From positions 1 to 37,377 of the forward strand of contig CAIYUC010000153.1 of the NCBI GenBank assembly GCA_903929315.1: a stretch of DNA of 37,377 nucleotides. The letters are read 5' to 3'. Each line of letters begins with the position of its first letter. Within the stretch, counting starts at the first letter, position 1. Source of the DNA: an uncultured Bacteroidales bacterium. Lineage in GTDB: Bacteria; Bacteroidota; Bacteroidia; Bacteroidales; FEN-979. Below the pieces are notes generated by a model. The model had not been told where the DNA came from. It was given only the letters and a program-made list of their open reading frames with translations, and did not search any database. Shown here in pieces: positions 26,839-31,112 of this stretch. Both the position numbers and the translations under genes were made by a program.

Positions 26839-26912
26839 CGGGGCGTGGCGCAGTTGGCTAGCGCACTTGCATGGGGTGCAAGGGGTCGGAAGTTCAAGTC
26901 TTCTCGCCCCGA
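26839..26912 (+). tRNA. tRNA-Pro (anticodon GGG), no encoded CCA
   Basis: Acceptor CGGGGCG/CGCCCCG with C1-G72; D arm GCGC..GCGC; anticodon arm CTTGC-ATGGGGT-GCAAG; T arm GGAAG-TTCAAGT-CTTCT. Confidence 0.95.
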
Positions 26913-27308: not shown

Positions 27309-29156
27309 ATGCGTGTAATGAAATTGATACGTATTGTACAATTTGGCCTTTTTCTGGTTTTGTTAAGCTCTGTGTCTGCCAAAGCTGAAAAACAGGGCAA
27401 GGAGCTGATCGATTCACTTGAACATATATTAAAACAGCATAACCAGGAGGATACCGGGAAAGTGATCCTATTATACCGATTAGCCTTTGAATGGCATTCA
27501 ATTGCTCCCGTAAAGAGCATTGAATTCGGTGAGAAAGCCTTAGCGCTCGCGGAGCGACTTACTTATACAAGCGGAATTATCTCGTCTCTTTTATGCACCG
27601 GTACCGGATATTGGGAATTTCCGGACTATCCGAAAGCACTTGAATATTTTTTCAGGGCATTGAAGATTTCAGAGCAGGTTGATAACAAACAATTTATCGC
27701 GATATCATATAATAATATCGGTAACATCTATGCTGAGCAGAATGAAGAAGATCAAGCCCTGAAGTATTACCTGAAAGCCTTGTCGATCAATGAAATGCTG
27801 AAGTCAAGGATCAGGATAGCCCGAAACCTCGGTAACATTGGTACGATCTATCATGGTAAACAGGATTTCCTAAAAGCCCTTGATTTTCATACCAGGGCAT
27901 TAAAGATTTATGAAGAGCTCGGGGAGAAAAGAGGAATTGCCATCACCTTGCTTAACATTGGAGATGTCTATCTTATCACGGCTGACTATGACCGTGCATT
28001 TGAATATTTTACCAGGTCTATTGAGATCTCTAAGGATGCAGGTGAAGATATTTCGCTGATGAATGCATATGGCGAAATCGGGAAATTATTTTATCAACTT
28101 GCAATGGATAAAACCGGGCCAATTATCCACTATCCATTACCAGTTGCCGGTAATAAAAACAGTTACCTGCAAAAATCAATCGATTATTCCCTGACAGCAT
28201 ACCGGCTTGGGAAACAAATCCCGGCATTGGATGAAGTAAGATCATGGACCAAGTCGCTTTCGGATGCTTACCGTGAGTTGAATGATTTCAAAATGTCATA
28301 TTATTATCTGGATTCAAACAGGATCTTTAAAGATTCGGTATTTACTATCGATAAAGAAAAGTTGATCAATAACATGTCAACCAGGAGGGAAATGGATCTC
28401 AAGGAGAAGGAGATCCAGATCAAAAATGTGAGCCTTGAAAAAGCTAAAATCCAGCGAATCGCCCTGGCAGGAGGATTGATAGGCCTTATCATTATCCTTT
28501 TTGTAATTTACAGGTCACGCCGGAAATCAGAAAGGTTATTGCTGAATATGCTCCCTGAAAAAATTGCGCGTCGCTTAAAACATAAGGAAAAACCGATAGC
28601 GGATCTTTTCAGGGATGCGTCTGTTGTTTTTATTGATATCGTGGAATTCACCTCATTTTCAAAGAACAAAGAACCGGACTACCTGGTCAGTGTGTTGACG
28701 GATTTCTTTACAAAACTGGATGAATTATCCGGCAAGCATGGGATGGAAAAGATCAAGACGATTGGAGATTGCTATATGGCTGTCTGCGGATTGCCGCAAC
28801 CGGTGCCCGACAGCATTGAAAGAACTGCCCGTTTTGCCCTTGATTCGCGTGACCTTATGCGCAGTTATAAAACGGCCGATGGGTACGACATCCGTGTCAG
28901 GATAGGAATTGATACCGGAAAGGTAGTAGCCGGTGTGATCGGGGAGAAAAAATTCAGTTATGATCTCTGGGGAGATGTGGTAAATACCGCATTCCATATG
29001 GAATCACACGGGATTGCCGGAGAGATACAGATCACTGAAAATGTATTTCATAAGCTGGACGGCAAGTTCAAAATGAAAGAACGCGGGGAAGTGGAAATAA
29101 AAGGTAAAGGAAAAATGAGAACCTGGATACTGGAGGGTTTGCTTTCCGATAAATAA
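27309..29156 (+). CDS. TPR-repeat class III nucleotide (predicted adenylate) cyclase with one transmembrane segment
   Basis: Signal/TM N-terminus; TPRs (ALKYYLKALSINEML, ALDFHTRALKIYEEL, AFEYFTRSIEISKDA); TM IALAGGLIGLIIILFVIY; cyclase DASVVFIDIVEFTSFSK...EKIKTIGDCYMAVCGLP...YDLWGDVVNTAFHMES. Confidence 0.92.
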   Translation: MRVMKLIRIVQFGLFLVLLSSVSAKAEKQGKELIDSLEHILKQHNQEDTGKVILLYRLAFEWHSIAPVKSIEFGEKALALAERLTYTSGIISSLLCTGTGYWEFPDYPKALEYFFRALKISEQVDNKQFIAISYNNIGNIYAEQNEEDQALKYYLKALSINEMLKSRIRIARNLGNIGTIYHGKQDFLKALDFHTRALKIYEELGEKRGIAITLLNIGDVYLITADYDRAFEYFTRSIEISKDAGEDISLMNAYGEIGKLFYQLAMDKTGPIIHYPLPVAGNKNSYLQKSIDYSLTAYRLGKQIPALDEVRSWTKSLSDAYRELNDFKMSYYYLDSNRIFKDSVFTIDKEKLINNMSTRREMDLKEKEIQIKNVSLEKAKIQRIALAGGLIGLIIILFVIYRSRRKSERLLLNMLPEKIARRLKHKEKPIADLFRDASVVFIDIVEFTSFSKNKEPDYLVSVLTDFFTKLDELSGKHGMEKIKTIGDCYMAVCGLPQPVPDSIERTARFALDSRDLMRSYKTADGYDIRVRIGIDTGKVVAGVIGEKKFSYDLWGDVVNTAFHMESHGIAGEIQITENVFHKLDGKFKMKERGEVEIKGKGKMRTWILEGLLSDK

Positions 29157-29191
29157 TATCTCTGTCCTTGCGGCCTCTCTGTAATTTTTTT

Positions 29192-29754
29192 ACCTCAATC
29201 CCCGGCCCCTTCTCCTTAAGACTACTCTTTATACATATTTTATTCAATAAATTATTTCTTATAAGTTCCTTTCTTTTGCAACTACCAAAAGAAAGGAACC
29301 GAAAGAAAAGTCACCGCTCTGGAAAATTTTCTAAAAAACTGCGAACACGCTAAAAAATCCGGGGCTTGGGTTTTCGGGCTTCGCTGTGAAAACCTCAGCC
29401 TGATCCGGATTTTTCCTGACGTGTGTTCTTGTTTTTTTTTACGAAAATTTTCCAATGCGGTTTTAAGGCCTTCGGATTTTTTGCGGGGACCCACCCAGTG
29501 AAGATTCCGTTAAAAGCCAGGCAGAGAAGTGAGGCACGGATTTATTTGGTAAAAATTATTTTTGTGTAGTATACCGTGACGAACGGCTTGACTGGCTTAG
29601 GAATCGAACCGAAGGTGGGTCGCAAAAAAGACGAGGCTGTCTTTTTCTTTCGTTCTTTCTTTTGGACAAGCAAAAGAAAGAACAGAAAAGAATGGAAATG
29701 TAAAAGATGTATACAAAGAGTAGTCTTAAGGAGAAGGGGTGCAGGGGATGAGGT
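29192..29754. repeat. Nested inverted-repeat element with about 110-120-bp imperfect terminal inverted repeats
   Basis: Left acctcaatccccggccccttctccttaagactactctttatacat... matches the reverse complement of the right end acctcatcccctgcaccccttctccttaagactactctttgtatacat...; further inverted pairs inside. Confidence 0.75.
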
Positions 29755-29852
29755 GCTTGGTAAATTCACCGGGGCTTGCCCCGGAATTCGGGTCCAGGGC
29801 TCTGCCTTGGGGTTCATACCATTTAATTCAATCCTTATTAAAATTACCGGTT

Positions 29853-31112
29853 TCAATTTTTCAAACACCGGACACTATACCCGTTTGTCTTAGTATAGGC
29901 GCGGCGGACCACATAGTCGTAATTGAACTGAAGAAGCCGGTACCATGCATTGGATGAAAGGCTTTCTGAAGATGACCAAAAGGTAGCATAGTCTGTCATG
30001 AAAAGGGTGCCGCTGTAATACCTGTAACCGCCGGGAAGAGCAGTAAACCCGCTTTCATTGGTGGCACTGGTATTGGGTGGTGCCCAGTGAGTCCAGCCTG
30101 TTTCTTTCATCTTCCCCCCGGCAATACTATCTCCGCCTAACGCGGTCATAAGCGTTGTCCATTCAGCATCCGTCGGAATATGCCATCCCGATGGACATAT
30201 TCCCTGGATCCCGGGCGTAGTGTCGTATTTCATCATCTCACCCCATTGGTATAACCCGCCATATATATCACAATCTGAAACTTTGTTTTCATAACAGTAT
30301 TTCTCGGTTATACCATTATCATTTTGATTAAAAGTATCAATAGTCAGGGTTCCCACATTCAGATTTTCCGCCATCCATGTTTGTGAACCTATCCGCACTG
30401 TCGCGTATGTATGGTTCTCCTCATCCCTGCAACCGGCAAACTGAAAAGTTACGGTTTTACTGGCTATGGGCACATCAGTAACAATCGTGCGGTAGGGCCC
30501 TGATATGCTTTTATAAAGCAGGAGATCTCCCTGGGTATATTGCATATCAACCGTTGAATTCGTGCTTTTCGGTTGTTTTGTTGTCTTGATAAATTGAACT
30601 TTTTCATTTGAAACATATTCAATTCTTGCCTCGCTTCGCGAAATGCTTTGGCTTATCAGTTTTGCGGAATAATTATAATTTTGTCCGGTAGCTTTCAGCA
30701 TATACATCCCTGGGTTAATACCGGAAATATCAAATTCATTCGTCCCCTGGGACAAAAAAGCGCTGATCTGAGTGACTATTTTCCCGGATATATCTGAGAT
30801 ACTTATATCTACATTACCGGTACATGGTGCGAAGAGTGTCAGAACTGATTTTTCTCTCATTGGATTTGGATAAACCTGGAAAGGGCTTTTATCATTGTTC
30901 AGTATTTCAATTCCTGCTGTCACCTTTAAATTCAGGATATCTCCCCCGTGTAGGGTGACAGAAGCTCCGCTTGTTAAATTATAAACCTTTATGGAGTCAA
31001 TTGCGGTAGTATCACCGGTACCCGCAAAACTAATCAGGAAGTTTTGTGCCTGGGTCTGAAGCATCCCTAACATTATTAACATGATAATGGTAAAGTTTTT
31101 CATAATTCCCAA
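29853..31112 (-). CDS. FISUMP-domain protein with an internal T9SS-sorting-like domain
   Basis: FQVYPNPMREKSVLTLFAPCTGNVDISISDISGKIV (internal); HTYATVRIGSQTWMAENLNVGT...GGLYQWGEMMKYDTTPGIQGICPSGWHIPTDAEWTTL...FWSSSE...YSVRCLKN. Start may be the ATG of MKNFTII. Confidence 0.88.
   Translation of the reverse strand: MGIMKNFTIIMLIMLGMLQTQAQNFLISFAGTGDTTAIDSIKVYNLTSGASVTLHGGDILNLKVTAGIEILNNDKSPFQVYPNPMREKSVLTLFAPCTGNVDISISDISGKIVTQISAFLSQGTNEFDISGINPGMYMLKATGQNYNYSAKLISQSISRSEARIEYVSNEKVQFIKTTKQPKSTNSTVDMQYTQGDLLLYKSISGPYRTIVTDVPIASKTVTFQFAGCRDEENHTYATVRIGSQTWMAENLNVGTLTIDTFNQNDNGITEKYCYENKVSDCDIYGGLYQWGEMMKYDTTPGIQGICPSGWHIPTDAEWTTLMTALGGDSIAGGKMKETGWTHWAPPNTSATNESGFTALPGGYRYYSGTLFMTDYATFWSSSESLSSNAWYRLLQFNYDYVVRRAYTKTNGYSVRCLKN

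Follow-up and report, generated by a model that had tools for sequence, protein, structure and literature searches.

Our analysis of the window, by which we mean the whole 37,377-nt stretch of DNA studied here, centred on a gap between two convergent genes, a TPR/adenylate-cyclase gene on one side and a Fib_succ_major gene on the other. The plus-strand gene ends at 29156 and the minus-strand gene at 29853, so that their 3' ends converge on an interval built in three layers: an outer palindromic repeat (29185-29221 plus 29725-29835), an IS50-type insertion within it (29222-29724), and a set of hairpins, named H1, A, B and H2, inside the insertion. Elsewhere in the window, 26839-26912 is a tRNA gene, the sole Rfam match at the gathering threshold within the window. 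The features of the interval are as follows.

29185..29221, no strand: outer repeat, left half, ...ACCTCAATCCCCGGCCCCTTCTCCTTAAG + A; from the joined-flank alignment
29222..29724, no strand: IS50-type MITE, whole insertion of 503 bp, with a 94%-identical full copy that has a 10-bp target-site duplication (TSD)
29222..29243, plus strand: left terminal inverted repeat (TIR), CTACTCTTTATACATATTTTAT; first 14 nt identical at other elements and at the complete ISs L160 and L165
29265..29299, plus strand: hairpin H1, GTTCCTTTCTTTTG...CAAAAGAAAGGAAC, a perfect 14-bp stem, conserved in alignment A6 across two families
29313..29461, plus strand: hairpin A, long imperfect palindrome ACCGCTCTGGAAAATTTTC...GAAAATTTTCCAATGCGGT; z -9.5
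29474..29633, plus strand: hairpin B, covarying structured core of about 160 nt; 44 pairs, with matches of covariance model R1
29652..29683, plus strand: hairpin H2, GTTCTTTCTTTTG...CAAAAGAAAGAAC, 16-19 nt downstream of B
29703..29724, minus strand: right TIR, CTACTCTTTGTATACATCTTTT read on the minus strand; slightly degenerate
29725..29835, no strand: outer repeat, right half, CTTAAGGAGAAGGGGTGCAGGGGATGAGGT...GGGGTTCATACC; from the joined-flank alignment

An insertion nested in an older palindromic repeat

The original prediction described long terminal inverted repeats around this interval, and these are real: 29192-29309 matches the inverse of 29643-29754 with 78% identity over ~118 nt (E 3e-14), and a repeat search of the arms returned a 41-nt core at 85%. 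The arms are composite, their outer parts (29192-29221 and 29725-29754) being palindrome halves and their inner parts (29222-29243 and 29703-29724) transposon TIRs. The outer repeat is a palindromic intergenic repeat of ~140 bp, in which 29192-29220 and 29725-29754 match a solo ~52-bp palindrome as overlapping halves that share CTTAAG or CTGAAG. This solo palindrome is present in the same genome (contigs C18, C100, C2 and C132) and recurs in the family, the sister species G001 included. When the two flanks were joined in silico without the insert, the resulting 141-bp query aligned uninterrupted to L032 of the host genome, at 91% over 134 bp, and to L036 of the sister species, at 92% over 133 bp, which shows that the insert interrupts an older, pre-existing repeat. 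The original prediction proposed a search for other full-length copies and for empty sites; the search yielded a second full-length copy (see below) but no exact empty site at the orthologous locus in the cyclase-gene contexts of G001, G003 and G017, where, by inspection, the downstream regions differ.

Ends, copies and complete relatives of the insertion

The ends of the 503-bp insertion are of the 14-nt form CTACTCTTTATACA, although the right TIR of the window copy has two mismatches to the common form, with C13 changed to T relative to the IS50 consensus. The second copy, in the same genome at G000:C176:10993-11495, is 94% identical, lacks the outer palindrome and is bordered on both sides by CCCAATTACC, an exact 10-bp TSD; the joined, insert-free sequence expected at that site is ...CCCAATTACCGGAAGG.... 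The genome thus holds two full copies, together with partial interior relatives on C205 and C56. CTACTCTTTATACA also bounds a 982-bp element on C75 and occurs on C3 and C21. Among public genome contigs, 50 stretches contain CTACTCTTTATACA(CATCTTTT); judging by the record titles, almost all are from Bacteroidota. There was no match to this end in viral contigs, nor any match to the element in plasmids. Among the TIR-bounded elements listed, 11, the C176 copy included, have exact TSDs of 9-11 bp.

The window copy has no direct TSD; instead, CTCCTTAAGA on one side is the inverse complement of TCTTAAGGAG on the other, a pattern also seen at L153 (CTCCTTCAGG and CCTGAAGGAG). Arm-to-arm correction within the enlarged palindrome would produce such flanks, and we infer that it accounts for the missing direct duplication. 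As for the targets themselves, TSD sequences are slightly more palindromic than their shuffled counterparts (mean 0.476 versus 0.427), a tendency that is weak as scored, with 195 of 5000 shuffles reaching the observed value; a bias towards pyrimidines on the left and purines on the right was seen by inspection only.

The 982-bp element on C75 (G000:C75:23503-24484, L050:1501-2482) has the same TIRs and an ORF of 131 aa belonging to the PD-(D/E)XK nuclease superfamily (PF13366, E 9.5e-40). The flanks of this element are unlike on its two sides and match those at C21 and C3, which suggests recombination or an assembly switch.

Two complete ISs share the TIRs, L160 (1553 bp) and L165 (1524 bp). 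Their transposases, of 475 and 452 aa, match the IS4-family model NF033590 of NCBIfam (IS4_3; E 6e-102 and 4e-98), and that of L160 also matches Tn5 transposase structures (E 4.6e-27) and carries, by inspection, the Y-2-R-3-E-6-K signature as YSQRWFIEELFRVLK. The last five residues of both proteins, DVYKE, are read from AAAAGATGTGTATAAAGAGTAG or its variant, which puts the transposase stop codon inside the TIR. Since the same TIRs are found on ISs of ~1.5 kb with a Tn5-related transposase, the 503-bp element is an IS50-type MITE. It is also of MITE size (503 bp, below ~1 kb), and, in line with the original prediction that no credible protein is encoded, the four ORFs tested in or overlapping the interval gave no Pfam match.

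The source of L160 is a MAG labelled as a delta-proteobacterium and that of L165 a Bacteroidales MAG from the rumen; neither IS is the direct parent of the window element. An IS50-type transposase was not found in the 244-contig assembly of the host genome; family-mates hold fragments of one (G017) and a near-complete, interrupted copy (G022). A 450-codon open frame in another genome (G229:C51, with a PF01609 match), considered as a possible partner, belongs to a different IS with ends AGGCATATGCGTCAACTTAA that lies near an IS50-type TIR, and was set aside for that reason.

The Tn5 mosaic end is CTGTCTCTTATACACATCT, which the ends of the window element resemble. The end consensus of the IS50 subgroup is CW------Y---CA-A--W- (PMC2266710), and the element end CTACTCTTTATACACATCTT fits every fixed position of it. 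The same survey lists direct repeats of 8-9 bp in IS50, as against about 10 bp across the IS4 family (PMC2266710); the 9-11 bp of the related elements here differ from the former and are in keeping with the latter. Unlike IS50 and its own complete relatives of ~1.5 kb with their Tn5-like transposase, the window element has no transposase gene. In this it is like BrickBuilt and other MITEs of Porphyromonas gingivalis (PMC4596501), which are likewise short, non-coding and bounded by TIRs that they have in common with full ISs. BrickBuilt, however, has ends of the ISPg1/ISPg9 type and an internal 23-nt tandem repeat (PMC4596501), whereas the window element has IS50-type ends and a covarying core of several hairpins, and this core is also found without those ends.

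The hairpin interior and the distribution of its core

For the complete 503-nt insert, the folding energy is -194.4 kcal/mol, as compared with -121.9 +/- 7.3 for shuffled controls (z -9.9), and the prediction places A and B together inside an inner stem, AAAGAAAAG/CTTTTTCTTT. The hairpins that had been placed inside each terminal arm turned out to be the separate hairpins H1 and H2. The long palindrome held up as hairpin A (-66.9 kcal/mol, a stability reached by 0 of 200 shuffles), and its arms change in concert between copies, as judged by inspection. The third inverted pair of the original prediction (about 29478-29497 and 29614-29630) forms the basal part of hairpin B, a larger structure that folds at -53.5 kcal/mol (z -4.5).

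In an alignment of 12 copies of hairpin B, 18 of the 44 pairs had changed on both sides and 94.6% of the cells were paired, as opposed to 24-45% when the partners were slid by 1-3 columns; the covariation score was 0.308, versus 0.125 for shuffled data. Comparison of the copies' sequences therefore supports a conserved structure of the core. With a second full copy and 18 compensated pairs, the element is not a single-copy sequence devoid of compensatory changes, the finding that would have spoken against the original prediction. Of 29 B loci, 13 have a purine-rich hairpin of the H2 type 16-19 nt downstream of B and one more has it at 72 nt (2 of 131 control windows), with stem sequences that differ between loci.

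The covariance model finds hairpin B in 11 of 43 genomes of the family (5 of 8 genera, 1-4 matches each) and in 8 of 295 genomes of the order, including families f20, f76 and f116, while a phylum-wide search of 396 genomes returned the host genome only. These copies mostly lack IS50-type ends. The H1-A part is conserved between the family of the window and G111 (family f70), there likewise within IS50-type ends; the H1-A junction pattern applied across the phylum was too stringent for copy counting and missed even the host genome. At about ten other loci, B has TTTGCCCTCAGGCCGGGCGG on its left and/or CCGCCCGGCCTGAGGGCAAA on its right, always in this orientation. B units with TTTGCCCTCAGGCCGGGCGG upstream and/or its inverse complement downstream were seen at L188, L185, L191, L186, L200 and others, and represent a second type of terminal repeat.

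A divergent B (E 2.8e-5) occurs at L187:1501-1636 (G029:C377:6319-6454), in frame within an uninterrupted 453-codon reading frame that is mutY-like by inspection. Rickettsia palindromic elements are mobile palindromes able to insert in frame within protein-coding genes, and the likeness lies in this in-frame copy; at the same time, host, sequence and size are different, and the copy at L187 is the one in-gene case in this analysis.

Origin of the element and competing readings

We consider it highly probable (roughly 0.88) that 29222-29724 is a non-autonomous MITE mobilised in trans by an IS50/Tn5-type transposase, with an interior formed by a conserved hairpin array. The MITE-like candidate of the original prediction is borne out by the TIRs, by the second full-length copy with its 10-bp TSD, by uninterrupted copies of the target repeat, and by autonomous relatives that share these TIRs and encode a transposase like that of Tn5; the nested anatomy of the locus is observed directly. 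Mobilisation in trans and target preference are our reading of these observations. The transposase would bind the ~14-22-bp ends, CTACTCTTTATACA(CATCTTTT), excise the element and reinsert it through a staggered cut of ~10 bp, presumably by cut-and-paste. Preferred targets would combine a left-hand run of pyrimidines with a right-hand run of purines, as in the centres of CCCCTTCTCCTTAAGGAGAAGGGG repeats; the window copy landed in the centre of such a repeat between two convergent genes.

The interior could instead be primarily a functional structured non-coding RNA, with the transposon ends incidental, and the strong covariation in B and the constant distance from B to H2 in several families both argue for this. 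So does the excess of G-U wobbles over A-C mismatches on the modelled strand of B (21 versus 8, one constant G-T pair excluded), as expected of RNA rather than DNA; this ratio leans towards RNA, but the count rests on an alignment that was fitted to the structure. On the other hand, copies of B sit in unrelated contexts, one of them inside a gene, their distribution among the genomes of family and order is patchy, and Rfam has no family that matches the element at the gathering threshold, a permissive search giving sub-threshold matches only. We regard this explanation as rather unlikely; for the structured-RNA candidate in the original prediction, the support is at the level of a conserved structure.

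A compound bidirectional terminator would suit the position between two 3' ends and the hairpins with T-rich stretches nearby, but the same element also occurs at C176, the B core is found in varied contexts including the inside of an open reading frame, and a TIR-bounded, TSD-flanked unit of ~500 bp would be superfluous for a terminator, all of which makes this very improbable. Least credible, in our view, is a BIME/REPIN-type array of extragenic palindromes moved by a REP-associated tyrosine transposase. The many hairpins and the multi-copy intergenic location recall such arrays, but REPs are short hairpins of 20-40 bp whose ends have no TSD, whereas here the unit is long, with long TIRs as its boundaries, related elements have TSDs of ~10 bp, and the transposase of the relatives matches the DDE (IS4-family) type. 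Neither BIME nor terminator is thus supported as the primary explanation, and the BIME-like candidate is not supported for the inserted element. The original interpretation as a whole is partly supported.

Returning to the MITE, we see its interior most readily as a selfish passenger with a structure of its own, or as a structured RNA/DNA element, that has been carried between terminal repeats of more than one kind. We tentatively raise a stronger version, which is possible though short of an even chance: H1-A-B-H2 may be a hitherto undescribed structured Bacteroidales element that moves by being lodged between terminal repeats of unrelated kinds, IS50-type ones in the host genome and TTTGCCCTCAGGCCGGGCGG/CCGCCCGGCCTGAGGGCAAA in family f116 and in other genera. 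It would then exploit several transposition systems as a parasite and might act as an RNA. The MITE itself is of a known kind; the structured core beside different terminal repeats is the new part. The case dissects three repeat layers nested within a single intergenic region, for whose target repeat naturally empty copies exist, and places IS50/Tn5-type MITEs in Bacteroidales, for which we found no earlier report in the literature searched. A covarying core without an Rfam match, set between different terminal repeats, also bears on how non-coding sequences hitchhike on transposases.

As a separate observation, L217, from a genome of the same class but another family (G709), shows by inspection a similar H1-A-...-H2 layout with unrelated arms, in two copies side by side.
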